Assembly: GCA_014762625.1 (NCBI GenBank)
Contig: JABURQ010000013.1
Span: 1-64,000 of the forward strand
Direction: 5' to 3'
Origin: Planctomycetaceae bacterium
GTDB lineage: Bacteria > Planctomycetota > Planctomycetia > Planctomycetales > Planctomycetaceae
DNA length: 64,000 nucleotides
Position 1 is the stretch's first letter. Each line of letters begins with the position of its first letter. The notes beneath the pieces were generated by a model. It saw only the letters and a list, made by a program, of their open reading frames with translations. It did no database searches and had not been told where the DNA came from. The translations under genes were made by a program, and so were the position numbers. Below are positions 20,617 through 35,071 of the stretch, one piece after another.

Positions 20617-23600
20617 TTACCAGATGAACTCGGTTCCCCATTGACCGGAGTGCAAGTTGGCTTGTTCTCCGATGGCGGCCTGATACTCGACATAAGTTCG
20701 GAAAGGCCCCATCATCCAGTTCATGGAAGGTCCGAACTGGAACCAGTTTTCGCCGAGGTCGATTCCACGAGCTGAAAATTGGGAACCGGGTGTGCTGGTT
20801 AATCCGGCTTGATAGTCGGCGACTGAGTTTCCGACTTCATAAACCCAGGCTCCCTCAAAATCGACGCTCAGGAGTCTCCGAAAATGATACATGTTCAACC
20901 GGCTTCCCAATTTTGTCCGGAAGCTGTTGAGATCGATATCACTCACACGAAGTGGCGTAACCGAGCCGCCCGTTTCCGTGAAGTCCTGGGCTTGAGCGTG
21001 GAGATACTGTAGGGCGAAGAAGGGTTGAACTCGGACGTTATCCGTTCCAACGGTCACCCCCTGCTCCAACAGGAAGCCGGTATTCCAACCGCGATAGCTT
21101 CCGACATTGTGTTCGGCCAACGCATTCACGACCACCGTTCGATCGGAATCCGAGTCCATCCACCCCGTGAATCCGGTGAAGACCGTGTGCAACATTCCTC
21201 GCTGATCGCGGAGATACAAACCAATTCGGTGTGCGTCGGTATCCACCTTGGAACCCACTTTTGAGGCTTGCACTTGCTGATCTTCGTAGTTGTAGAAGGC
21301 TCCCATGATGGTCTGAGGCCCCAGACACCAGCTCTTCCCAAAGGTATGTCCGATGGTATCCACATCCGTCGAGTTTGCGTTTCCATCGCTGTCAAGCTGG
21401 CCGGCTGTTGCGTATCCGGAATACCATAACTCATCCATACAAGGAAACGCGGGGGAATGATTGTGATGGACCTGATTGCCCAACACGTCCATCAGGTGAC
21501 TCATACTTTGAATTTGATAAGCCGCACTCGTTCCGTAAATCTCGCCGCTTAACTGATCCAGGGCCATTCGGACGGCCGCCGTATTCGGCAACAGGTCGAG
21601 TTGGGTACGCAAGGACTGGATCTGAGCATTGCCCATGTCGAGTTTCACGACATCGAGATACGCTCCGACTCGTTTCTGGTTGTAGGTTCCCCCCTGGGGG
21701 CCATAGGGTGCATCATTCGCCAGCATGAAACCGGCGGAATTGAGCGTAAAGAATGGCAGGGTCCGATAATTGATCAGGTCCTCGGTAAAAGTCGGAGCGG
21801 TATTGACGACCACGCCATTCGATGCAGTGACGTAGGTGTAGCTCGTCCCCGCCGTATAAGCACCATTATTAGGTAGACCGATGACATCGACACTCCCGCC
21901 GTTGAAGGTCGCCATCCCGTTGATTTGAATCAGGTCGTTATCGGTTCCCGCGACAGGACTCGCGGAGGGCTGAATTTCAATTTCTTCCATTGAAGTCGGT
22001 GAGAAGATCACATCCGAATCGATCATGATCGTTCCGATACTGTTCCCAGGAGCGGTCGTTCCGTTGAGTGTGATCGGGTCGCTGGAATTAATCAAACCGT
22101 TCCCTTCGATCCGTGAGTTGGCCTCCGTCACAAAGGAGTTGGAGTTGACCACTCCGTTGTTGACGAGCAGACCGCCATTCATCAGATTCAACGTTGATGA
22201 ATTGAAGGTTCCGCTGGTAGCGAGAGACGCACCGGAGAGAATTTCGGCGTCATCAAAAGTCGTGGTTCCCCCAAGATTTGTTTGACCGCCAGCGAAGGTG
22301 GCGTCGAAGAGGGTCGAACCTCCAATGTCATCATTATAGGTCATGGAGAAGGCGTTGTCCGGGGTATTGGTGACTTGGCCGTTCATGTCCGCCTCGTAAC
22401 CGAATGTCATCAGCGGCTGGAAAAGATTGTCCCCCGGTGAAACGATTGCATTGCTGATAATGTTACCGGAAATCGAGGCACCGTTCATGAAGTTCAGACG
22501 ATTCAGCCCGGCCGTGTCGGCGATCACAATGGCGTCTGTTTCTCCCGATACGCTTCCCGAAATATCGAGATCATTTACTAACGCTGCGTTATAGTCGGTG
22601 GAGTCAATTGTATTGCTGGCAAAAATGAATCCCCCTCCAAAATCCATCATAATTCCGACGCCGTTGGTTCCCGTCGCGGAAACATCACCTCTGACCACAA
22701 TGTCGTGAGAGGCACCACCGCTGGCAAAAATACCAACTCCATTAGTTCCGTTCGCATTGATACTGGTTGCCGTACCGATGTTGACCGTGTTGCCAGTCCC
22801 TCCGACGAAACGGATTCCAGTCCCCGCATCCCCAGAAGCGTTCAGATCCCCGTTCTGAGTGATACTATTGTTACTGGAAAGTATGTAGAGACCGAGACCG
22901 AAGCGATTTCCCGGTGAATAGGAATTATTGTCGGTGACAGTCTGATTGTCTTGATAGTAAGCTCGTCCGAAGTTGTCGCTGAGGACGACGTTGAATCCAA
23001 GGTCGGCAAGAATCGCCAACTCCGCGGGAGAAGCATGGGGAACATTGCGATAATCCTGCCCGAAGACGAGTCCTCGCGTGATGTTTTCATAAGGAATCGC
23101 GGTATGTCCGCCGTCTCCCGCGAGCGGAATCCCACTGCCGCCATAGACATTTACCGCGTTCATTCCCGTAAAGGTGTCGACGCCGCTGATATTCATTACC
23201 TGGCTGAGGAATGGCGAATGGCTATAAGTGGCGACCCCAAGTGTATGTCCAAGTTCGTGGATCGCGATCATTTCCATTGAGGTAGGACTATCGGGAAGCT
23301 GCGTGATCTCACCGGTTCCGAAGCCAAGATTCGCAGGAAAGAAGACATTCCGACCGTCGATGCCTCCATCACGCGCTGGTGTCCCACCCTGTAGTCGTGA
23401 AATTACGTTATGGCTACCACCTGTGACCGCTGACAGCGCGTTGGCGTTAAAAAATGGAGCTGCCGTCACATTAATCATCCGCATGATCGGCGCATCCGCG
23501 TCGGCGGGGTCGAGATTCAATACATCCGACCAATACAGGAACGCGCGATTCATCGCATCAATTTCTGCTTGAGAAAAGACGCTCATCTCGTTGACCTGAT

Positions 23601-23763
23601 AGGTCGTATTGATTGCGTAGGCCGGGCCGTCGGCAGGATCCCAATATTGGACGTTGAAGCCGCCGACTTGAATGGTGGTTTGTGCGTTTGCGGTTGTGGT
23701 CGCAACAAACACCAATAAGAAGATCGGCAAAAAAAGTCTGGTCAATTTTCGGCCCTGAAACAT
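20617..23763 (-). CDS. Autotransporter-like surface metalloprotease
   Basis: The 1048-residue protein has a signal peptide (1 to about 27, ending ANA). A zinc-metalloprotease domain has the HExxH site at residues 169-173 in AIHELGHTLGVATYSH. A passenger of repeated beta-helix-like turns follows (about 270-660: NNSITQNGDLNASGDAGTGI, ATSINANGTNGVGIFASGG), containing many Asn/Gly/Ser residues. The C-terminal ~280 residues look like an outer-membrane beta-barrel with alternating aromatic strands, ending in Trp (GTEFIW), the autotransporter end signature. It would be exported by the Sec system and then cross the outer membrane through its own barrel. It is convergent with the methyltransferase gene and divergent from the SGNH gene. 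Confidence 0.85.
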   Translation of the reverse strand: MFQGRKLTRLFLPIFLLVFVATTTANAQTTIQVGGFNVQYWDPADGPAYAINTTYQVNEMSVFSQAEIDAMNRAFLYWSDVLNLDPADADAPIMRMINVTAAPFFNANALSAVTGGSHNVISRLQGGTPARDGGIDGRNVFFPANLGFGTGEITQLPDSPTSMEMIAIHELGHTLGVATYSHSPFLSQVMNISGVDTFTGMNAVNVYGGSGIPLAGDGGHTAIPYENITRGLVFGQDYRNVPHASPAELAILADLGFNVVLSDNFGRAYYQDNQTVTDNNSYSPGNRFGLGLYILSSNNSITQNGDLNASGDAGTGIRFVGGTGNTVNIGTATSINANGTNGVGIFASGGASHDIVVRGDVSATGTNGVGIMMDFGGGFIFASNTIDSTDYNAALVNDLDISGSVSGETDAIVIADTAGLNRLNFMNGASISGNIISNAIVSPGDNLFQPLMTFGYEADMNGQVTNTPDNAFSMTYNDDIGGSTLFDATFAGGQTNLGGTTTFDDAEILSGASLATSGTFNSSTLNLMNGGLLVNNGVVNSNSFVTEANSRIEGNGLINSSDPITLNGTTAPGNSIGTIMIDSDVIFSPTSMEEIEIQPSASPVAGTDNDLIQINGMATFNGGSVDVIGLPNNGAYTAGTSYTYVTASNGVVVNTAPTFTEDLINYRTLPFFTLNSAGFMLANDAPYGPQGGTYNQKRVGAYLDVVKLDMGNAQIQSLRTQLDLLPNTAAVRMALDQLSGEIYGTSAAYQIQSMSHLMDVLGNQVHHNHSPAFPCMDELWYSGYATAGQLDSDGNANSTDVDTIGHTFGKSWCLGPQTIMGAFYNYEDQQVQASKVGSKVDTDAHRIGLYLRDQRGMLHTVFTGFTGWMDSDSDRTVVVNALAEHNVGSYRGWNTGFLLEQGVTVGTDNVRVQPFFALQYLHAQAQDFTETGGSVTPLRVSDIDLNSFRTKLGSRLNMYHFRRLLSVDFEGAWVYEVGNSVADYQAGLTSTPGSQFSARGIDLGENWFQFGPSMNWMMGPFRTYVEYQAAIGEQANLHSGQWGTEFIW

Positions 23764-24130
23764 CGTCTTCCTCCTTGAGCGACTGTTTCGCTGTTATCCC
23801 CTCAAAACGAGCGTCCGTACCCGCGCCATTCGAGATAACACACCCCCTTCTTCGGACTTTCCTATTCAGAGCATTCACTGGGGTTCCGACGATCACTACT
23901 GTGCGTGCAGCAAAAACTCTTACATGCGGAACAACTACCCCAGCCCCCCCAAACTCTCAGAAAAACACTTCCCCATTTTCTGGAAGCATCGGCTGCGAAT
24001 CATCCGCGCGCGAATGATCATCCGGAATCACCGTGTCGTGTAGGAGAAAATCGCCGTTTGCGATCCGGCGTGCGGGGAAGTATCGTGAGAAATTCACTCT
24101 GTTTGATTCGACCGATGGAAATTCTGACTC
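23764..24130. other. Intergenic region between divergent autotransporter and SGNH genes
   Basis: This 367-base region separates two divergently transcribed genes and must hold both promoters. It contains a C-rich stretch (around 23940) but no recognisable operator, repeat or small gene. No convincing promoter elements were seen. Confidence 0.5.
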
Positions 24131-24820
24131 ATGCTCCGATTGCTGACAGTCTGGTGTCTCCTGCTGAACGGGACAGCGTTTTTCCTGCAGGCGCAAGAGG
24201 TTCCGGAAGCAACCCTTCCCAAAGTGGTGCTGCTTGGTGATTCGATTCGTCTCAGCTACACGTCAACTGTGAAGCAAGAACTCGCTGGGCAAGCGATCAT
24301 TGTGAGTCCCAAACCGAACGGACAGGACAGCCGCAATCTCCTGAAACATTTAGAAGCGTGGGCCATCAAACAACAACCTGACGTCGTACATTTCAACTGC
24401 GGCATTCACGACACAAAAAAGTTTAAAGCGACCGGGAAGTTTCAGGTCTCTCCCGCGGAGTACGAAGCGAACCTACGTCAAATCGTAAAGCGGTTGCGCG
24501 ACGGGACGGAAGCGAAGATCATCTTCGCCACCTCCACCCCCATCCTTGATGACCGCGCCGCCGAGGTCCGCGCCGATCGAGACTACGAACTGCTCAACGC
24601 CAGCATCGAACAATACAACAGCATCGCCAAAAAAGTGATGCGAGAACTCAAGGTTCCGGTCAACGATCTCCATGCGGCCCTTTCAAAACCAATGTCCCCC
24701 GCCACCACAGAATCGTTGATTGTCAACGACGGCGTCCACCTCACTCCCGCAGGGCAACTGCTTCTGGGACGACAGGTCGCTCGGAAGATTCAATCGACAT
24801 GGAAAGAGAACTCGAAATGA
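24131..24820 (+). CDS. Secreted SGNH/GDSL hydrolase
   Basis: The 229-residue protein has a signal peptide (1 to about 22). The block-I GDSI nucleophile is in PKVVLLGDSIRLSYTS, with VVHFNCGIHD in block III and DGVHLTPAGQ in block V, giving the catalytic Ser-Asp-His set. It is likely an esterase or deacetylase acting on acylated polysaccharide. It overlaps the next gene by ATGA. It is related in sequence to the SGNH hydrolase at 34226-34936, for example in IIFATSTPIL against LIFATTTPVP. Confidence 0.9.
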   Translation: MLRLLTVWCLLLNGTAFFLQAQEVPEATLPKVVLLGDSIRLSYTSTVKQELAGQAIIVSPKPNGQDSRNLLKHLEAWAIKQQPDVVHFNCGIHDTKKFKATGKFQVSPAEYEANLRQIVKRLRDGTEAKIIFATSTPILDDRAAEVRADRDYELLNASIEQYNSIAKKVMRELKVPVNDLHAALSKPMSPATTESLIVNDGVHLTPAGQLLLGRQVARKIQSTWKENSK

Positions 24821-25866
24821 AATTCGCCGCACTTTGTTTACTGGCTCTCGTGGGACTGCAAACGCCACCGTCTCTATCGGCTCAGGAAACGACGTTACAA
24901 ACTCACGTCGTGACCATCGAACGTATCTGGGATCGTGCCGCTCATTCGGCGTTCACCGACATCATTCGCTTCCGGGACGATTTCTACTGCACGTTTCGCG
25001 AAGGCTCGGGGCACATTCCGGGACGCAACGGACTCATCCGCGTCATTCGATCTTCGGACGGCATGAACTGGGAATCAGTGGCGCTCCTCGACGAACGGCA
25101 CGTCGATCTGCGCGATCCGAAGTTGAGCGTGACCGCGGATGGGCGTCTGATGGTGAATTGCGGAGCGTCCTATTATCACGACAGCAAACGAGTCGGCATC
25201 GAATCGCGGGTCGCCTTTTACGATCCCGACACCGATAAGTTCAGCAAGCCTCAAAAGGTCATACTGCCGAAAGAGGCCCGGGTTGGCTTCGACTGGCTGT
25301 GGCGAGTGACCTGGCATCAGGGATGGGCATGGGGATGCGTCCAACAGGTTCCCAACGACGGCGAGAGAGCATTGCATCTTGTCCGTAGCCGGGACGCCAT
25401 CCATTACGAATACGTCACTGAATTAGAAATCCCGTTCCCCACCGAAACGACGTTACGGTTCACTGAGGATGGGACCATGCTGGCGATGATGCGTCGTACC
25501 GGAGAGGATCCTCATGGCTGGATCGGCCGCGCGGAGCCCCCTTATATCGACTGGACCTACAAAACGTCGAACCAGTTTTTCGGCGGTCCGAACTTCGTAC
25601 AATTACCGAATGGAGACTGGCTCGCGGGGAGCCGGGTCTATCGTAAGAAAACACCCCGCACCGGGCTTTGGAGACTCGATCCCCAGACCGCTCAGTTCAC
25701 CGACATTCTCGAACTCCCCAGCAACGGCGACACCAGCTATCCGGGATTTGTGATCGATGAGGAGAATAACCGCGTGTGGGTTTCGTATTATTCGTCGCAC
25801 GAAGGGAAGACGGCGATCTATCTGGCCACCTTGAGACTGGACGTCTTAATGTCATCCGAGCCGTGA
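24817..25866 (+). CDS. Secreted sialidase-like beta-propeller protein
   Basis: The 349-residue protein starts at the ATG overlapping the previous TGA. A signal peptide (MKFAALCLLALVGLQTPPSL up to SAQ) is followed by a propeller with BNR-like turns (RVIRSSDGMNWESVALLDE, LRDPKLSVTADGRLMVN, FPTETTLRFTEDGTMLA). The residue pattern fits the sialidase/exo-alpha-sialidase-like superfamily seen widely in planctomycetes. Whether it cleaves sialic acid or another glycan is not evident. It is translationally coupled to the SGNH hydrolase, which suggests joint work on one secreted or environmental glycan. Confidence 0.8.
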   Translation: MKFAALCLLALVGLQTPPSLSAQETTLQTHVVTIERIWDRAAHSAFTDIIRFRDDFYCTFREGSGHIPGRNGLIRVIRSSDGMNWESVALLDERHVDLRDPKLSVTADGRLMVNCGASYYHDSKRVGIESRVAFYDPDTDKFSKPQKVILPKEARVGFDWLWRVTWHQGWAWGCVQQVPNDGERALHLVRSRDAIHYEYVTELEIPFPTETTLRFTEDGTMLAMMRRTGEDPHGWIGRAEPPYIDWTYKTSNQFFGGPNFVQLPNGDWLAGSRVYRKKTPRTGLWRLDPQTAQFTDILELPSNGDTSYPGFVIDEENNRVWVSYYSSHEGKTAIYLATLRLDVLMSSEP

Positions 25867-25910: not shown

Positions 25911-27272
25911 TCACGTCGGCGGATGAAGTGAGAGCTTGACCCGTTTGACGGCGATCGATTTCTCTCTTTTATCGGAACTACGATTGAGCGCATATTCCGT
26001 CGTGGTGTGGTCAGCTCTGATGGCGAGTTCCACCACCCCGCTATTTGTGTCTGCTGGATCAACCGCGAACGTCACGACCGTGCAACCCTCGGCAGTCGAA
26101 CAGACGGGCGCAACTTCGCGACCGTTGATGAAATAGGTGGTCTTCGAAAACATCTCCGGCGTGATGAAGGCGAGCAAGTAAACCGAAATCCAATGCGGAA
26201 CGCCGGGGCGGACGGGAAGATAGAGATGCGATTCCCGGTCAGGACCCATCCAGCGAAACGTTTCCTTCCCCTTTCCTTCTCGTCCGTGGAAATTATCGCC
26301 AAACAGCTCATCTTCAAAGTTGAGTTCCCACTCGTCTTCCGAGAGGAACCGTTGATCACGTTGGTGACTGTTTCTCCATAATTCCAGGGTCGCCTTCTGG
26401 AGAACTTTTTCCCGCCAGGCAGCATATTTCTTCAGTCCCTCTTCGTAGAGGACCTGATCGAGCGCGACGAGGGAATCGGGAACCTGCGAGATCAGATCCG
26501 CCTCGGTTTGCGAGCTATGCTCTCCCGCGTTAAGAGCCCCCAACCGGCCGGGTGGTAACCAATGACTGTCGAGACTGATGAGACGCGCGAATTCATTGAG
26601 ATCTTTCACGTCGGCGACATATTCAATCCGCGACAAGTTTTTTAGGGCATCTTCGAGAATCGCTTGTTCTCCAAGTTGACTCCATATGACACGATTCAAA
26701 TGATGGCTGCTCAGGAAACGCGTTTGCAGGTTGTAGAAGTTGGACCAGATATAGAACTGATCGATTTGACGACAAAATTCTCCAAACGATAATTCACGAG
26801 CTAACCGATAAGCCGCCATCTGGTCATGACTCAATCCCTTCGAATCATCGAGCGGAATCCGACGAAGATGTTTGTAATGTGAAACGATTCGTTCTCGAGG
26901 GTCGCGCAGCAGAGTATAAAGCACCAATTTTCGCGATTTCACCAACGATTGCATGACGATCCACTCAAAATGGTTCTCAACGATGAGGTCGCAGGACTGC
27001 ATCGACTCGACGTAACGTTGAGACAGGAGCCGAAAGTTGTCCTTAGAAGAGATCTGACCAGCCGCTTTGAGTTGCTGATGTATTTGATAGTCGGCGATCG
27101 ACTTATCGGCCGTGTAAATCGCCGAACGAGGAAAGTGTCGCGACAGGTAATCGGAAAAAGTGGTGCCGCCGCACTTCGGAATGTGCAGGAAGAAATGCAT
27201 CGGTTTCGAGTCTGATGCCTCCGCCGATTCTTCTTGAGAGGCGGAGACTTTGGGCAGGCTTTGAGTGATCAT
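25911..27272 (-). CDS. Sulfotransferase family 2 protein
   Basis: The 453-residue protein has the P-loop-like PAPS-binding segment HIPKCGGTTFSDYLS at residues 30-44 and the 3'-phosphate-binding RDPRERIVSHYKHL region further on, both hallmarks of sulfotransferases that move sulfate from PAPS to carbohydrate. The ATG at 27272 is preferred to the upstream in-frame ATG (13 residues earlier). The C-terminal ~130 residues (from about EEDELFGDNFHGREG-like sequence onward) look like an additional beta-rich domain. It follows the FkbM methyltransferase gene by about 40 bases in the same direction, so the two are probably cotranscribed. Confidence 0.85.
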   Translation of the reverse strand: MITQSLPKVSASQEESAEASDSKPMHFFLHIPKCGGTTFSDYLSRHFPRSAIYTADKSIADYQIHQQLKAAGQISSKDNFRLLSQRYVESMQSCDLIVENHFEWIVMQSLVKSRKLVLYTLLRDPRERIVSHYKHLRRIPLDDSKGLSHDQMAAYRLARELSFGEFCRQIDQFYIWSNFYNLQTRFLSSHHLNRVIWSQLGEQAILEDALKNLSRIEYVADVKDLNEFARLISLDSHWLPPGRLGALNAGEHSSQTEADLISQVPDSLVALDQVLYEEGLKKYAAWREKVLQKATLELWRNSHQRDQRFLSEDEWELNFEDELFGDNFHGREGKGKETFRWMGPDRESHLYLPVRPGVPHWISVYLLAFITPEMFSKTTYFINGREVAPVCSTAEGCTVVTFAVDPADTNSGVVELAIRADHTTTEYALNRSSDKREKSIAVKRVKLSLHPPT

Positions 27273-27313
27273 GATGACATCCCTAACGCTACAGTAACAT
27301 TTTTTCGGCAAGT

Positions 27314-28297
27314 TTATTTTTGACGCCGTAAGTAGATGTCCGAGTGCGGAACGTTATACAGCGATTCTCGATTGAGCGGCGTCAGTTCCGGCAGATGCCC
27401 TTTCCCCTTGAATCCTTCGTGACAGATCCGGAACGGCTCAAATTTCTGTTCGTCGAGCAGGAAATCCCACATCGAGTTGATGTAAGGTGTTCTCTCCGGA
27501 ATGAGCTGCGACGTTGAGGGATCCCACTCCACGATCATTTCCAGTTCCGGAGAACGGCGGATCAATTCCTGAGCTCCCGCAATGACGTAACTCTCCGAGC
27601 CTTCGGCATCAATCAGCATCGATTTGACAGACGAGGCATCCGCAGTAATTCGGTCGAGGGTCCTGCCTTCCGTTTCCACCTCACACAAAATGCCAGTCGG
27701 AACGAACATGCGTTCGGCGTTGAGAGTGCTGGGGGTATTCTTTCCCGACCAAAACGCATCCTCAATCTGTTCCGCCTGCTCGGTCGACGTAAACATATTT
27801 CCTCCGCCGATAAACTGCGGATCGAAGGTGAACCGAATCGGTTGTTCGTCCATGTCTGGAGCCGCGGCAGCACAGAGATATGGAGAGACAATGCCCGGAA
27901 CTCCCCCCCAGAAAATCGATTTTAATAAGTAGCGGAAGACGTGGGGATTGGCTTCGACGGCATAGACCTTCCCCTCACCTCCAACTCGATGGCCTGCCAT
28001 GACTGAGTAGTAGCCGAAGTTGGCTCCAACGTTGACGACAGTGTCGCCGGTGGAAAACGTGGAGAGAAACATCTCGTTCGTCCAGGGCTCGATCTGGCCG
28101 TCCCGGACAATCCCGATCGCCACGTCGATGTTCCAGTTCGGAACGACCAGATAAAATCCGCGCTTCGTTTCCACGAGTAACTCGTCTTCATAAAGCGGGA
28201 CGATTCGACGCGCGGACTTACCGACCAGGGACTGTAGACGTTGCATCAGACTCTCCACAAGGCCGTTCGATTCTTCTGCGGTCGCTTCATCTTCCAT
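27314..28297 (-). CDS. FkbM family methyltransferase
   Basis: The 327-residue cytoplasmic protein has the SAM-binding motif VVNVGANFGYYSVMAG (87-102) and KVYAVEANPHVFRYLLKS, typical of FkbM methyltransferases that methylate sugar hydroxyls or related groups. The C-terminal part includes LIDAEGSESYVIAGAQELIR, another FkbM signature. An AGGAAG ribosome-binding site precedes the ATG. It is upstream of the sulfotransferase and divergent from the glycosyltransferase at 28643. Confidence 0.9.
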   Translation of the reverse strand: MEDEATAEESNGLVESLMQRLQSLVGKSARRIVPLYEDELLVETKRGFYLVVPNWNIDVAIGIVRDGQIEPWTNEMFLSTFSTGDTVVNVGANFGYYSVMAGHRVGGEGKVYAVEANPHVFRYLLKSIFWGGVPGIVSPYLCAAAAPDMDEQPIRFTFDPQFIGGGNMFTSTEQAEQIEDAFWSGKNTPSTLNAERMFVPTGILCEVETEGRTLDRITADASSVKSMLIDAEGSESYVIAGAQELIRRSPELEMIVEWDPSTSQLIPERTPYINSMWDFLLDEQKFEPFRICHEGFKGKGHLPELTPLNRESLYNVPHSDIYLRRQK

Positions 28298-28642
28298 AAC
28301 AACTCTTCCTCAAAACTCAGCGGATCGTTTGACGGCGGAAGTTTAGAGGTGACTCGCCTACTCTGCAATATCCATTTATTCTGATGGAATTCTCTGAACA
28401 TCAGAGGGTTTTACTCAGAACAATCACCACTCTCGTTGTCGTTTGTGGAATTCGAGGGAACGGTTTCATCCTCTGAGAGGAAAGCACTCGAACCACTCTA
28501 GGGATTCCCACCTTGACAGTCTCTGAGATTACTGGTTTCATTGTCGCCCATTGTTCGATAAGCAGGATTCCCAGGCGCTCTGATCTCGGCCAACAGAAAG
28601 CCAGGATGGTCAATTTGCAAATTTGAAGTAGGAAGATTTTCG
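28298..28642. other. Divergent promoter region of the glycan cluster
   Basis: This 345-base region lies between the divergent FkbM and glycosyltransferase genes. It is likely to hold both promoters. I saw no clear -35/-10 pair, repeat, operator palindrome or small gene in it. Confidence 0.45.
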
Positions 28643-29887
28643 ATGGATCGAAAACCTACGGTGCTTCACGTCTCGACATGGAAAGTTCCTTGCGGGATCG
28701 CCACTTACTGCGAGAATCTGGTCCTCTCACTGGAGAGAATTGGGTGGAACAATGAAATTGCCCAATTACACCCCCATGAATGGCCCACCTGTCTGCCCCA
28801 GGAAATCGATCATTGGCGAGATCAGATCGTCAAACAGGCCGAGTCCGCGGACCTCGTCCACGTCCAACACGAGCACGGGCTCTTCGGAAACGCGGTCAGT
28901 AACGGATTTGCCGTCAAACGTTACGGCAGCCTGCTCAAAGAGCTCCATCGGATTAAAAAACCGGTCGTCACGACGTTCCATACCGATGTCTGTACGAATC
29001 CGAAACGAGGGCTTTCCGGAAAACTGAAGCGAATTCGTCTTACTGCTCGCTGGAAAAAGCACGTGACCGGTTATTTCGGCGCGGGACCGGGAAAGAATCA
29101 CGCCATCGTCCACGCCAGAGACACCCGGAAATCGATGGTGAAGCACAGCTTCCCCGCCGACGCCGTCCACGTTCTCCCTCACGCCTGCCTGCCGCCGCGC
29201 AACATCACACTGAGTCAAGCCGACGCCAAGCAGCAATTGGGACTTCCTCGCATCTCCAAAATCATCTCGATTTTTGGATTCGTCGGTCGCTACAAAGGTC
29301 ACGATCTCGCCATCGAGGCACTCGAAAAACTTCCCCAAAAGTATCATCTGGCGATTGTGGGTGGCGCTCATCCGGAGTCGCGGGAGGAGTTCCTGGATGA
29401 GATTCTCACAAACATTCCGGAAAAATTGAAGTCACGGGTTCATATTACCGGCTGGGTGGATCGAGCGACTGCCGATCTCTACTTCGCCGCAACCGATGTT
29501 TGCCTGGCTCCTTATCGGGGCAATACGCTGCTCTCCGGCTCCGGAGCGATTACCTGGGCTTTGAGCTCCGGTCGACCTGTGATCGCCAGCAAAATTGAAG
29601 CGTTTCAACACGTCAATCGTATCGGCGACTGCATGTTTATGGTCTCGCCCGACAACACTAACGAACTGGCGTGGGCTGTTGAAAAAGTTGTCGCTGACCG
29701 GCCTCTACGCGAACGACTTGTCGAGAACGCCAGAAAGTTTACTGAAGAATATTCCTGGGAAAACAGCCTCTCCAAATTGCTGGGTGTCTACCGACAGTGT
29801 GCTCCAGAACTGGCCACACACTGCGAACTGCCAACGATGAAGCCCGATCAGGAAATCGTGAGCTACGACTGGAAAAAAGCCTCGTAG
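28643..29887 (+). CDS. Group 1 (GT4-type) glycosyltransferase
   Basis: The 414-residue protein has a two-domain GT-B fold. The N-terminal half begins TVLHVSTWKVPCGIATYCEN, typical of sugar-nucleotide-dependent glycosyltransferases, and contains VHVQHEHGLFGNAV. The C-terminal GT4 signature includes FVGRYKGHDLAIEALEKLP, VCLAPYRGNTLLSGSGAITW and a conserved donor-binding Glu region. It is preceded by an AGGAAG ribosome-binding site. It is first of three plus-strand genes with an ABC exporter and a second glycosyltransferase. Confidence 0.9.
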   Translation: MDRKPTVLHVSTWKVPCGIATYCENLVLSLERIGWNNEIAQLHPHEWPTCLPQEIDHWRDQIVKQAESADLVHVQHEHGLFGNAVSNGFAVKRYGSLLKELHRIKKPVVTTFHTDVCTNPKRGLSGKLKRIRLTARWKKHVTGYFGAGPGKNHAIVHARDTRKSMVKHSFPADAVHVLPHACLPPRNITLSQADAKQQLGLPRISKIISIFGFVGRYKGHDLAIEALEKLPQKYHLAIVGGAHPESREEFLDEILTNIPEKLKSRVHITGWVDRATADLYFAATDVCLAPYRGNTLLSGSGAITWALSSGRPVIASKIEAFQHVNRIGDCMFMVSPDNTNELAWAVEKVVADRPLRERLVENARKFTEEYSWENSLSKLLGVYRQCAPELATHCELPTMKPDQEIVSYDWKKAS

Positions 29888-29936
29888 TCGGGCGTCTTCA
29901 TCTGGGTTCACGAAACACCTCAAAAACAGCGACACC

Positions 29937-31856
29937 ATGAAAAACTTTTTTCGCGCCTTAAACCAGACACGCAAACATTGGCCGTCATTGACGGCTTCCG
30001 CTGCCTGCTCGTTGATCGTCGCCGCATTGTGGGGAGCGAATATCGGTGCGTTTTTCCCGATTCTCGAAGTGACGATTCGAGGCCAGTCAGCGTTGGAATG
30101 GGTGGAAACGGAAATCGAGAAACATCAATCCGAAGTAACGCGACTCTCACAACAGAAGGAAGAGGCGGAAGTCGATCAGCTGGGTCCGGAGAATCTGGCG
30201 GCGATCCAGCAGGAGATCGACATTCACAAAGCCCAAGAGGCAAGTTTTTTGAAAATGAAACCCTGGATCGAAGCATACGTGCCGCGAGATCCGTTTCACA
30301 CCATCTGCTGGATCGTGGGTTTTCTCATCATTTCAACTCTGATCAAACACTTATTTCTGATCTCGAGCGAGTTACTGGTGGGACGCGTTTCGATCGATGT
30401 TTCCTGTAACCTGCGGAATCAGATCTTCGAAAAAGCGCTGCATATGGACCGGATCTCTTTTGAGAACTACGGACATGCCAATTTCATGACCACGACAGTC
30501 CATACCACCGAAATGCTCTCAAGCGGGCTGATGATGACGATGGGTGCGGCTCTCCGCGAACCGTTGAAAATTATCTCCTGTGTGATCGGGGCGTGTTACA
30601 TCTGCTGGAGATTGATGGTCTTGAGTTGTCTCGTTGCACCGCTAGTCGCGGTCATGCTTTATTTCACGACTCGAGCTTTGAAAGGAATCTCTCAAAGCGT
30701 CCTGGAGCGTGCCACCGGCTTTCATCACGTGCTTCATGAATCACTCAGCAATATCCAAACCGTCCAGGCCTTTCAGGGAGAAAAAGCCGAGCAGGAACGC
30801 TTCGAGAAATCCACGAACCTCGTGCGCATTTTCGGCCTGCGATTCATTTTTTACAGCTCACTCTCCAAACCGATCATTGAATTCCTGGGCGTCAGTATGC
30901 TCGGGATCAGCATCGTCTCCGGAGCGTATCTTGTCCTCAATCAACAGGATTCCATTCTGGGAATCCAGATCAGTGACGGCCAATTGGGCGTTTCATCGCT
31001 GCTCGTCTTTTTTGGAATGTTGATTGGGATCAGTGATCCACTGCGCAAACTTTCCACCGTTTATTCTTCAATTTATACGGGAACGGTAGCCGCCGATCAT
31101 CTCTTTAGATTGCTGGATCAATCAAGCCAGATTCAGGATCCTGAATCTCCGATACAAATCCCGAAACCTCACCAAAAAATTACGCTGGATAGCCTGGGGT
31201 TTCATTATTTACCAAACAACAAAGTTCTCCAGGGGGTTTCTCTAGAGATCCCCTATGGATCGACGGTCGCCATCATTGGAGCAAACGGTAGCGGAAAATC
31301 CACTTTGATCAATCTTCTCTGCCGGTTTTACGACCCGACTGAAGGAGGCATTCAGCTGGACGAGGTCGATTACCGCCAGATGACGATCGACGAAATTCGC
31401 TCCCGAATTGCCTTAGTGAATCAGCATACTCAGTTATTCAACGAAACCGTTCGATTCAACATCAAATACGGACACCCCGAAGCAACCGACGAAGAAATGA
31501 TGGCGGCCTCACAAGCCGCCCACGCAGATGAATTTATCAACACAGTGCTCCATAACGGTTACGACACGAATGTCGGACAGAACGGCAGTCGTCTCAGCGG
31601 CGGTCAACGACAACGCGTGGCATTGGCCAGAGCCCTGCTACGCGATCCCGAAATTCTGATCCTGGATGAGGCCACCAGCCAGATCGATATGCAAAGTGAA
31701 GAACTGATCCGACAATCTCTCGCCGAGCATAAAGGGGAACGAACCATGATCATCATCACCCACCGGGAAAAACTGCTCGAACTGGCGGACGAAATCTATC
31801 AGCTCGATCACGGCGTGCTCTCGCCCGTGGATGTGCCCTTTCGAAAAGCCGCCTGA
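29937..31856 (+). CDS. ABC exporter (membrane and ATPase domains fused)
   Basis: The 639-residue half-transporter of the MsbA/exporter type has an N-terminal six-helix membrane domain and a C-terminal nucleotide-binding domain with Walker A GANGSGKST (about residue 448), the signature LSGGQRQRVALARALL, and Walker B ILILDEATSQID. A charged helical insertion between the first two membrane helices (about residues 60-100, EVTRLSQQKEEAEVDQLG) looks like a periplasmic coiled coil. It most likely moves a lipid-linked glycan or lipid and works as a dimer. It sits 49 bases after the GT4 gene. Confidence 0.9.
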   Translation: MKNFFRALNQTRKHWPSLTASAACSLIVAALWGANIGAFFPILEVTIRGQSALEWVETEIEKHQSEVTRLSQQKEEAEVDQLGPENLAAIQQEIDIHKAQEASFLKMKPWIEAYVPRDPFHTICWIVGFLIISTLIKHLFLISSELLVGRVSIDVSCNLRNQIFEKALHMDRISFENYGHANFMTTTVHTTEMLSSGLMMTMGAALREPLKIISCVIGACYICWRLMVLSCLVAPLVAVMLYFTTRALKGISQSVLERATGFHHVLHESLSNIQTVQAFQGEKAEQERFEKSTNLVRIFGLRFIFYSSLSKPIIEFLGVSMLGISIVSGAYLVLNQQDSILGIQISDGQLGVSSLLVFFGMLIGISDPLRKLSTVYSSIYTGTVAADHLFRLLDQSSQIQDPESPIQIPKPHQKITLDSLGFHYLPNNKVLQGVSLEIPYGSTVAIIGANGSGKSTLINLLCRFYDPTEGGIQLDEVDYRQMTIDEIRSRIALVNQHTQLFNETVRFNIKYGHPEATDEEMMAASQAAHADEFINTVLHNGYDTNVGQNGSRLSGGQRQRVALARALLRDPEILILDEATSQIDMQSEELIRQSLAEHKGERTMIIITHREKLLELADEIYQLDHGVLSPVDVPFRKAA

Positions 31857-34225: not shown

Positions 34226-34936
34226 TTACTTGTCTCGGATCGCGGCGCGTAAATGGGTGACGACCTGGGCTGCCAACTGTTGGGATCCCTCGGGGGTAAA
34301 ATGAACGTTTACGGGGCGCTGGATTTTCTCCAGTCGAGGTAGCGCGAACGAATACAAATCGTTGACGGAACCGCCCGCCTCCCGGACGATTTTTTTCGCC
34401 ACCGCGTTATAGCGTTCCACATCCTCCGGATCGCGATGCGGTTTGACCCCTCCCTCGGGAACGGGTGTGGTCGTGGCGAAAATGAGTTTGGCTCCGGTTG
34501 CCTGAAGCTTCTTCGTAATCTCGCGTAACTGCTTCTCGTAGTCCTCGAGTTCCGCCTGTCGCGGATCGTCGGGGTTGTTGGAATTCTGCCCGGAATCCGC
34601 CTGCACGCGTTTCAAATCGTGTAAGCCGAAGTTGAAATGAATGACGTCCCAGTTCCCGCCGTCGATCTTTAACCAACGGTCAATCTGCTTGACGCCGTTA
34701 TTCGTTCCGGCGCAATTTTCGGGACGAGTTTTTCCCGTTTTGGGATTTGGTTTCCCCATCGGTCGAATCACGACCGCTTCGTCCTTCATCATTTCCTGAA
34801 CGTAGGGGGTATAACCGATCGAGATCGAATCACCCAACAGCAGAACCCTCGGAAGCTTCTGATCTTCCGCGCTCAAAGTCGCCGTGAGTTGGCCCGCGAA
34901 GATAGACAAAACGCCAATCATCAATAACGTACGCAT
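34226..34936 (-). CDS. Secreted SGNH/GDSL hydrolase
   Basis: The product is 236 residues from the ATG at 34936, which follows AGGAAAGAG; an upstream frame would put a long polar tail before the signal peptide. The signal peptide is MRTLLMIGVLSIFAGQLTAT to about residue 25. Block I is PRVLLLGDSISIGYTPYVQ; WDVIHFNFGLHDLKRVQ and NVHFTPEGSQQLAAQV supply the other catalytic residues. It resembles the SGNH hydrolase at 24131, and the two lie on opposite sides of the glycan cluster. Confidence 0.88.
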   Translation of the reverse strand: MRTLLMIGVLSIFAGQLTATLSAEDQKLPRVLLLGDSISIGYTPYVQEMMKDEAVVIRPMGKPNPKTGKTRPENCAGTNNGVKQIDRWLKIDGGNWDVIHFNFGLHDLKRVQADSGQNSNNPDDPRQAELEDYEKQLREITKKLQATGAKLIFATTTPVPEGGVKPHRDPEDVERYNAVAKKIVREAGGSVNDLYSFALPRLEKIQRPVNVHFTPEGSQQLAAQVVTHLRAAIRDK

Positions 34937-35071
34937 GAGGTTCTCTTTCCTGAGAGAGTGAGCGATCAAAACAGACCACCACCATAGAGCGGAAAGATTG
35001 TGGAAGTCAATTCGCGACGACAACCTTTACCGCTGAGTCGCCCGAATCGAGAGCGGTTGACTACCTGCATT

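Follow-up and report, generated by a model that had tools for sequence, protein, structure and literature searches.

The described proteins closest to the one reported here are the subtilisin-type autotransporters (NalP, Ssp, SphB1; EprS), in which an N-terminal protease is followed by a beta-helix, a linker helix and a 12-stranded barrel of the Pfam family PF03797. The gene under study, located at positions 20617-23763 on the minus strand of a 64,000-nucleotide stretch of DNA from a Planctomycetaceae bacterium (contig JABURQ010000013.1; this whole stretch is hereafter called the window), encodes a protein with the same succession of parts, but with an HExxH metzincin-like protease where the subtilisin-type proteins carry a serine peptidase. 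Its assignment to the serine-protease autotransporters (SPATE or subtilisin type) was rejected, since no S6 or S8 Pfam domain was found at E 1 and the NCBIfam EprS model scored 102 bits against a cut-off of 1700. A second point of comparison is AaaA from Pseudomonas aeruginosa, which PMC3426542 describes as an uncleaved, surface-bound M28 aminopeptidase on a type Va barrel. It is likewise a metallopeptidase on such a barrel (structure 9oqa; Z 28.7), but the alignment covers residues 718-1046 only, and M28 is a two-zinc family of another fold, whereas the window protein presents HExxH and a further histidine. Leishmanolysin (M8) likewise combines HExxHxxG with a distant third histidine and is the best structural match to the head of the window protein; it has no barrel, however, and Pfam M8 (PF01457) matched only one of five heads (E 0.12). 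In Leishmania, leishmanolysin is anchored to the cell by other means.

The same plan of HExxH and a distant histidine is found in the NCBIfam family NF038122 and in related planctomycete heads that are not fused to a barrel. Nine of the 11 fused heads in our set (five planctomycete, five proteobacterial and one from Selenomonas; the alignment and trees do not include the broken copies from Bradyrhizobium and Serratia) match NF038122 at E ≤1, the best at 1.4e-6, but none was seen to reach the cut-off of 80 bits: those of the window, L121 and L122 score 12.9-23.6 bits, the window head itself reaching 13.1 and 12.9 bits. From 36 of the unfused planctomycete heads the fused heads branch apart, and they possess their own junction signature, FGxxxY. 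Database entries from Enterobacterales, Pandoraea, Selenomonas and E. coli, known as 'autotransporter (outer membrane beta-barrel) domain-containing protein', belong to the same head lineage and have the same layout; they differ in a long insertion that separates HExxH from the third histidine, and their barrels are distant relatives. Those parts of PMC3419190, PMC6555100 and PMC9289746 that we consulted list no HExxH metalloprotease among type Va passengers, and the open-access literature searched yielded serine-protease autotransporters and AaaA but no description of a metzincin-headed type Va family. Judged by this partial literature, the known type Va proteases are serine enzymes and one M28 aminopeptidase, to which a metzincin class would add a catalytic type. 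PMC9289746 names type Va proteins for Fusobacteria, Chlamydiales and Proteobacteria; the term 'planctomycet' is absent from the main texts of three autotransporter reviews or surveys, in keeping with the remark of an earlier note on this DNA that type V secretion is little studied in planctomycetes.

We consider it likely, with a probability of roughly 0.7, that the window protein is a self-displaying, surface-tethered metalloprotease (an endopeptidase) with an exchangeable head, whose export, zinc binding, catalysis, tethering and substrate are predicted from its parts. The earlier note had read a HELGHTLG zinc-protease motif, a beta-helix-like passenger and a C-terminal barrel ending in Trp into a single chain of 1048 residues. 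This anatomy is borne out: the open reading frame is complete and occupies exactly positions 20617-23763 (1048 codons, beginning with ATG), and profile searches and an AlphaFold2 model recover the three parts in that order behind a putative signal peptide (residues 1-28; 23680-23763), the latter judged by eye from an RK pair, a hydrophobic core and the sequence ANAQ.

The evidence is strongest for the export half. PF03797 matches residues 779-1027 with an E value of 2e-35 (123 bits; cut-off 26). In the full-length AlphaFold2 model (28 aligned sequences; mean predicted local distance difference test [pLDDT] score of 81.5), a barrel of twelve long strands occupies residues 778-1047, so that the outcome named by the earlier note as refuting its reading, the lack of a barrel in the last 280 residues, did not occur; the block pLDDT values mostly exceed 90 in the distal helix and in the barrel. 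VIA-align superimposed this 12-stranded translocator barrel (residues 778-1048; 20620-21432) on EstA (Z 35.3), on NalP (Z 33.9; root-mean-square deviation [rmsd] of 1.5 Å over 277 residues) and also on AIDA-I, EspP and AaaA. Its last residue is Trp in the window protein and in the same-genus orthologues, and Y and F in the two fused proteins of a further relative, the genome G008. The barrel is preceded by linker helices (residues 694-766; 21466-21684), delimited with AlphaFold2 and VIA-align, the last of which continues into it; the alignments to EstA, NalP and EspP begin at residues 683-759. Further upstream, the modeled strands at residues about 275-683 (21715-22941) form a beta-helix passenger that matches Ssp (Z 19.8) and UpaB (Z 16.9 over 342 residues), as well as IcsA and Ag43. 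The barrel, linker and helix matches settle the membership by anatomy: the protein is a type Va autotransporter, and its export is predicted accordingly from profiles and models.

The enzymatic half begins directly behind the signal peptide with a metzincin-like head (residues 29-268; 22960-23679), delimited from alignments and a structure model, which passes into the helix at the FGxxxY junction kept in all 11 fused heads (residues 265-270; 22954-22971). HELGHTLG (residues 169-176; 23236-23259) would provide two zinc ligands and the catalytic glutamate; its H, E, H and G, and thus the HExxHxxG motif, are present in 11 of 11 fused heads, proteins that had been found by overall similarity and not by the motif. 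These heads also have an ELA...D.G stretch in common. As third zinc ligand we propose H220, situated in a GDGGH sequence (23104-23106). In an alignment of 43 planctomycete heads, of which five are fused and 38 unfused, at least 90% of the sequences have this histidine and W78 is invariant; neither residue served as a selection criterion for this alignment. The unfused sequences derive from a set of 52 loci whose head matches were weak or unfused. A HExxHxxG filter retained 41 of them (some of the 11 rejected loci do hold HExxH), and 38 of these 41 were aligned (L083, L088 and L090 were left out). One unfused relative of the head (L080; G398 C1:461315) lies inside an open frame of 19,806 residues.

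Realignment of a separate head model with VIA-align against 405 chains gave leishmanolysin as the best match (Z 10.4; 197 residues; rmsd 3.8; 14% identity), and the remainder of the best 50 of these chains consisted of serralysins and matrix metalloproteases with Z values of at most 7.9. A sub-threshold match to the matrixins (M10; PF00413, with 19.2 bits for the whole chain and 22.3 bits for the head against a gathering score of 24) had suggested this family, but it was dropped, because H220 lies 47 residues past H173 and the HExxHxxGxxH spacing is therefore not present (residue 179 is Thr). Sequence motifs and models together point to a leishmanolysin-like metzincin with H169, H173 and H220 as putative zinc ligands.

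Several observations weigh against this assignment. The head passes no curated family cut-off (NF038122, M10 and M8 come nearest), and Foldseek with the head alone returned nothing at E 0.001 or better. The separate head model is of moderate quality (pLDDT 70.6), with values below 50 at head residues 199-214, directly past H220, and the head is also poor in the full-length AlphaFold2 model (pLDDT below 50 at residues 178-238). HExxHxxG is found in 43 of 43 planctomycete heads, but the 38 unfused ones were picked by this very motif, so that its conservation among them exists by construction. In the alignment of the 11 fused heads, the H220 column is not an invariant one, and MAFFT places the candidate third histidine of the proteobacterial proteins off the H220 column, the two having been matched by eye instead. 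Finally, the putative Met-turn position, counted by eye as I228 (23080-23082), eight residues after H220, is occupied by Ile both in the window protein and in its orthologue from the genome G001; Met is found in seven of the 11 fused heads (L023, L024 and the five proteobacterial ones), Leu in L025 and neither of the two in Selenomonas.

The Ile at the Met-turn position could be taken to mean that the head is an adhesive binding module built on a metzincin scaffold and not an active protease, and an adhesin or phage receptor exposed to diversifying pressure would likewise be compatible with the exchange of heads described below. We consider this improbable. The catalytic Glu and the two histidines of HExxH are kept throughout the fused heads, which were not selected by motif, and the solved structures of PrtC M226A mutants (3hbv and 3hda), in which the Met-turn residue is altered, show that the enzyme still folds after a replacement of this kind. 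Sequence searches in the PDB gave no significant match for the whole chain and weak metalloprotease matches for head profiles; a PHROGs search with the autotransporter returned no family.

The fused heads form a group of their own. When the matrixin-type rows L074 and L076 are dropped from the head tree, the 11 fused heads constitute one side of a branch that separates them from 36 unfused planctomycete heads (support 99/93); with these two rows in the tree, the fork is open and comprises them together with the fused heads (97/90). The unfused rows of the tree are all planctomycete, and their choice relied on the profile of the fused heads together with the HExxHxxG motif. In the barrel tree, the five planctomycete fused proteins group at 100/99 with four headless G008 paralogues and a degenerate copy from the genome G002. 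The simplest reading of these sequence trees is one old family of protease autotransporters that would go back to a single ancient fusion, followed by loss of the head in some G008 copies. A point that speaks against it is the weak joining of the planctomycete and proteobacterial barrels (62/82), with the Selenomonas barrel as a long branch elsewhere; the case for a single fusion is therefore made by the heads, and an old replacement of the barrel is possible. Independent fusions in each phylum are not favored, given that the heads fall on one side of a branch, although the barrel tree does not settle this matter.

A comparison of the orthologues from two sister species, G001 (L141; contig C54) and G002 (L140; contig C135), revealed a mosaic. 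The two genes occupy the same locus, with common neighbors on both sides (five genes matched; 82-96% identity). Between the two proteins, the signal peptide (72% identity), the distal helix (78%) and the linker plus barrel (86%) are well kept, while the head and the proximal helix have only 42 and 38% identity, respectively; at the DNA level, similarity is lost near codon 25 and regained near codon 450. Between the window protein and G001 the order is reversed, with 82% identity in the head and 62% in the barrel. Likewise, counts of sites joining the window protein and G001 exceed those joining G001 and G002 by 102 to 8 in the head, while in the barrel the corresponding counts are 11 and 77. 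Residues about 29-445 were probably replaced in the G002 lineage, such that the enzyme half was exchanged; in the window gene, the segment that matches this divergent half, delimited by identity and DNA similarity, corresponds to positions 22429-23679 (residues 29-445). That the head is the best-kept part of the protein between the window and G001 suggests purifying selection on it; ratios of nonsynonymous to synonymous substitution were unusable since synonymous sites are saturated in all regions except the signal peptide of G001.

The low identity of the G002 head might alternatively stem from fast divergence, or from a chimera of the assembly, without any genetic exchange. Site counts like these would also arise from fast divergence along a long G002 branch, and the pattern may stem from a mosaic assembly in view of the draft status of G002 (230 contigs) and the apparently metagenome-assembled nature of G001. 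We nevertheless rate these explanations as rather unlikely: identity shifts abruptly at both ends of the segment, the G002 head is longer (273 versus 240 residues), and the flanking genes and barrels of G001 and G002 are 82-96% identical. If the exchange of the enzyme half did take place, the mosaic orthologue represents a natural head-swap and is directly testable.

From these parts the following course of events can be proposed. The chain would cross the inner membrane via Sec, and BamA, represented by a single Omp85 protein, would fold the C-terminal 12-stranded barrel into the outer membrane. The passenger would then be threaded out unfolded, and the beta-helix would fold from the barrel outwards, so that the N-terminal head would come to stand at the end of a stalk. 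There, the head would fold outside the cell, bind zinc via H169, H173 and H220, and use E170 to hydrolyze peptide bonds of extracellular proteins. A cysteine switch is not expected, because the head is devoid of cysteines (the only ones in the protein are at positions 775 and 813), and neither is a pro-domain, as there is no room for one between signal peptide and head. EspP-type cleavage occurs at an Asn-Asn pair in the linker; no such pair is present in linker residues 725-780, which makes this type of cleavage unlikely, and the passenger would thus probably remain attached. The leishmanolysin-like lineage would have been joined to autotransporters once, long ago, and would now be sparsely scattered over Planctomycetota, Proteobacteria and Negativicutes, its enzyme-bearing half exchangeable and its export half constant. 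The exchange of heads suggests that target specificity is what varies; nutrient digestion and attack on, or defense against, neighboring cells would both be fitting roles. Should this hold true, one secretion half would serve interchangeable surface proteases.

A different task for the head, namely the cutting of its own or of a neighboring passenger in the manner of NalP or of an autoreleasing IgA protease, would make maturation and release its main job, in place of an attack on foreign protein. NalP is among the closest structures to the translocator, the match to the serine-peptidase autotransporter EprS, although far under its cut-off, extends over part of the beta-helix, the linker and the barrel, and PMC6555100 reports cleavage of this kind for some serine-protease autotransporters. 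Yet the genome that carries the window gene contains no other PF03797 protein to be processed (the search covered no further class of type V proteins), and the headless G008 paralogues, which have the same distal helix, linker and barrel, would need another protease. A maturation enzyme hence appears to us decidedly unlikely, and we retain the surface-tethered protease acting on extracellular proteins.

The earlier note had proposed a search for the genes of the barrel assembly machinery (BAM) and of the translocation and assembly module (TAM). In the genome concerned (99.99% complete; 208 contigs), this search found a single Omp85 protein with four POTRA matches, one OmpH/Skp match over the cut-off, and YfiO/BamD-family matches over the cut-off in two frames, perhaps representing other tetratricopeptide repeat proteins. 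No recognizable TamB was detected in this genome by profile search. Since the TAM helps autotransporter secretion in E. coli, this absence is a further point against the proposed export. Of the 392 genomes sampled from the phylum, 78 had TamB over the cut-off, namely three of the 44 genomes positive for PF03797 and 75 of the 348 others (Fisher p 0.025, uncorrected for relatedness). Whether autotransport needs a TAM-like system at all could be tested in planctomycetes that possess a single PF03797 autotransporter and a single Omp85 but lack TamB.

With regard to its distribution, the layout is rare, as the earlier note had supposed in calling it not common, but it is not confined to planctomycetes. 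A whole-protein search of 59 genomes (the source genome, G000, and 58 relatives) gave some match in 12. Full-length heads (E <1e-98) were found in four of 170 genomes of the family (G000, G001, G002 and G008, the last with two copies), a count restricted to full-length heads; fusions with weakly scoring heads may also exist in other family genomes, whose loci were covered with short flanks and without a barrel scan. All five proteins with a full-length head carry PF03797 over the cut-off. In the phylum sample of 392 genomes, PF03797 was over the cut-off in 44 and the head profile matched 28 at E 0.001; seven genomes had both, and in G000 and G008 alone did the two coincide in the same place. 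The notion that the layout is unique to planctomycetes was dropped after a tblastn search of 72,556 plasmid records with the window head had returned five records, all from Enterobacterales (96% head coverage; 24% identity). With an enterobacterial head as the query, 16 of these records were matched, including Pandoraea, Bradyrhizobium and Selenomonas, the barrel not having been checked for all 16. Among 5,426 E. coli genomes, six hold a further member on the chromosome, in near-identical copies. PF03797 was confirmed in the Erwinia, Salmonella, E. coli and Selenomonas proteins, and for Pandoraea by record annotation. Of two broken copies (L123, L126), that of Serratia is interrupted by an internal stop, and that of Bradyrhizobium falls into several annotated open reading frames.

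Taken more broadly, the data can be read as an undescribed, cross-phylum class of metzincin-tipped type Va proteins, with one ancient fusion, no recognizable TamB in planctomycetes and the swapping of whole enzyme halves at a fixed chromosomal locus. This wider proposal is tentative, and we put its chances at somewhat below even.

Some copies of the gene stand in surroundings that merit mention. Transposase or recombinase genes lie beside the Erwinia, Pandoraea and E. coli copies (L121, L125, L128), and this proximity suggests that these copies are mobile. In G008, nine open frames match the autotransporter, some of them in tandem; two have a head, and several are headless with a related helix and barrel (L024-L029). 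G002 contains degenerate extras (L030, L031), namely a barrel whose reading frame is broken and a short piece of a head interrupted by stops.

In the window, the autotransporter gene is solitary. It is preceded by a ribosome-binding-site-like AGGAGG sequence 6 nucleotides upstream of the ATG (23770-23775, minus strand). A methyltransferase gene adjoins it tail to tail on one side; on the other, a divergent gene for an SGNH/GDSL hydrolase (24131-24820, plus strand), identified by Pfam and outside the proposed system, is followed by a partner gene (24799-25866, plus strand) without any Pfam family at E 1. This upstream divergent pair is also found at the locus in G001 and G002, where the hydrolase gene likewise adjoins the autotransporter gene. 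A major facilitator superfamily gene is common to the three loci as well, 9 kb off in the window, and the gene on the other side differs. Recent transfer of the window gene is not favored: its GC content (0.526) and GC content at third codon positions (0.596) fit those of 21 other open reading frames compared (0.504-0.595 and 0.582-0.715, respectively), and the divergent pair is kept in both relatives. The window contains a second SGNH hydrolase gene (34226-35023); the G001 counterpart of the first shares 67% identity with it and 32% with the second. Genes that adjoin in G001 and G002 are split in the window by a cluster (25911-31856) encoding sulfotransferase, FkbM methyltransferase, glycosyltransferase and ABC transporter domains.

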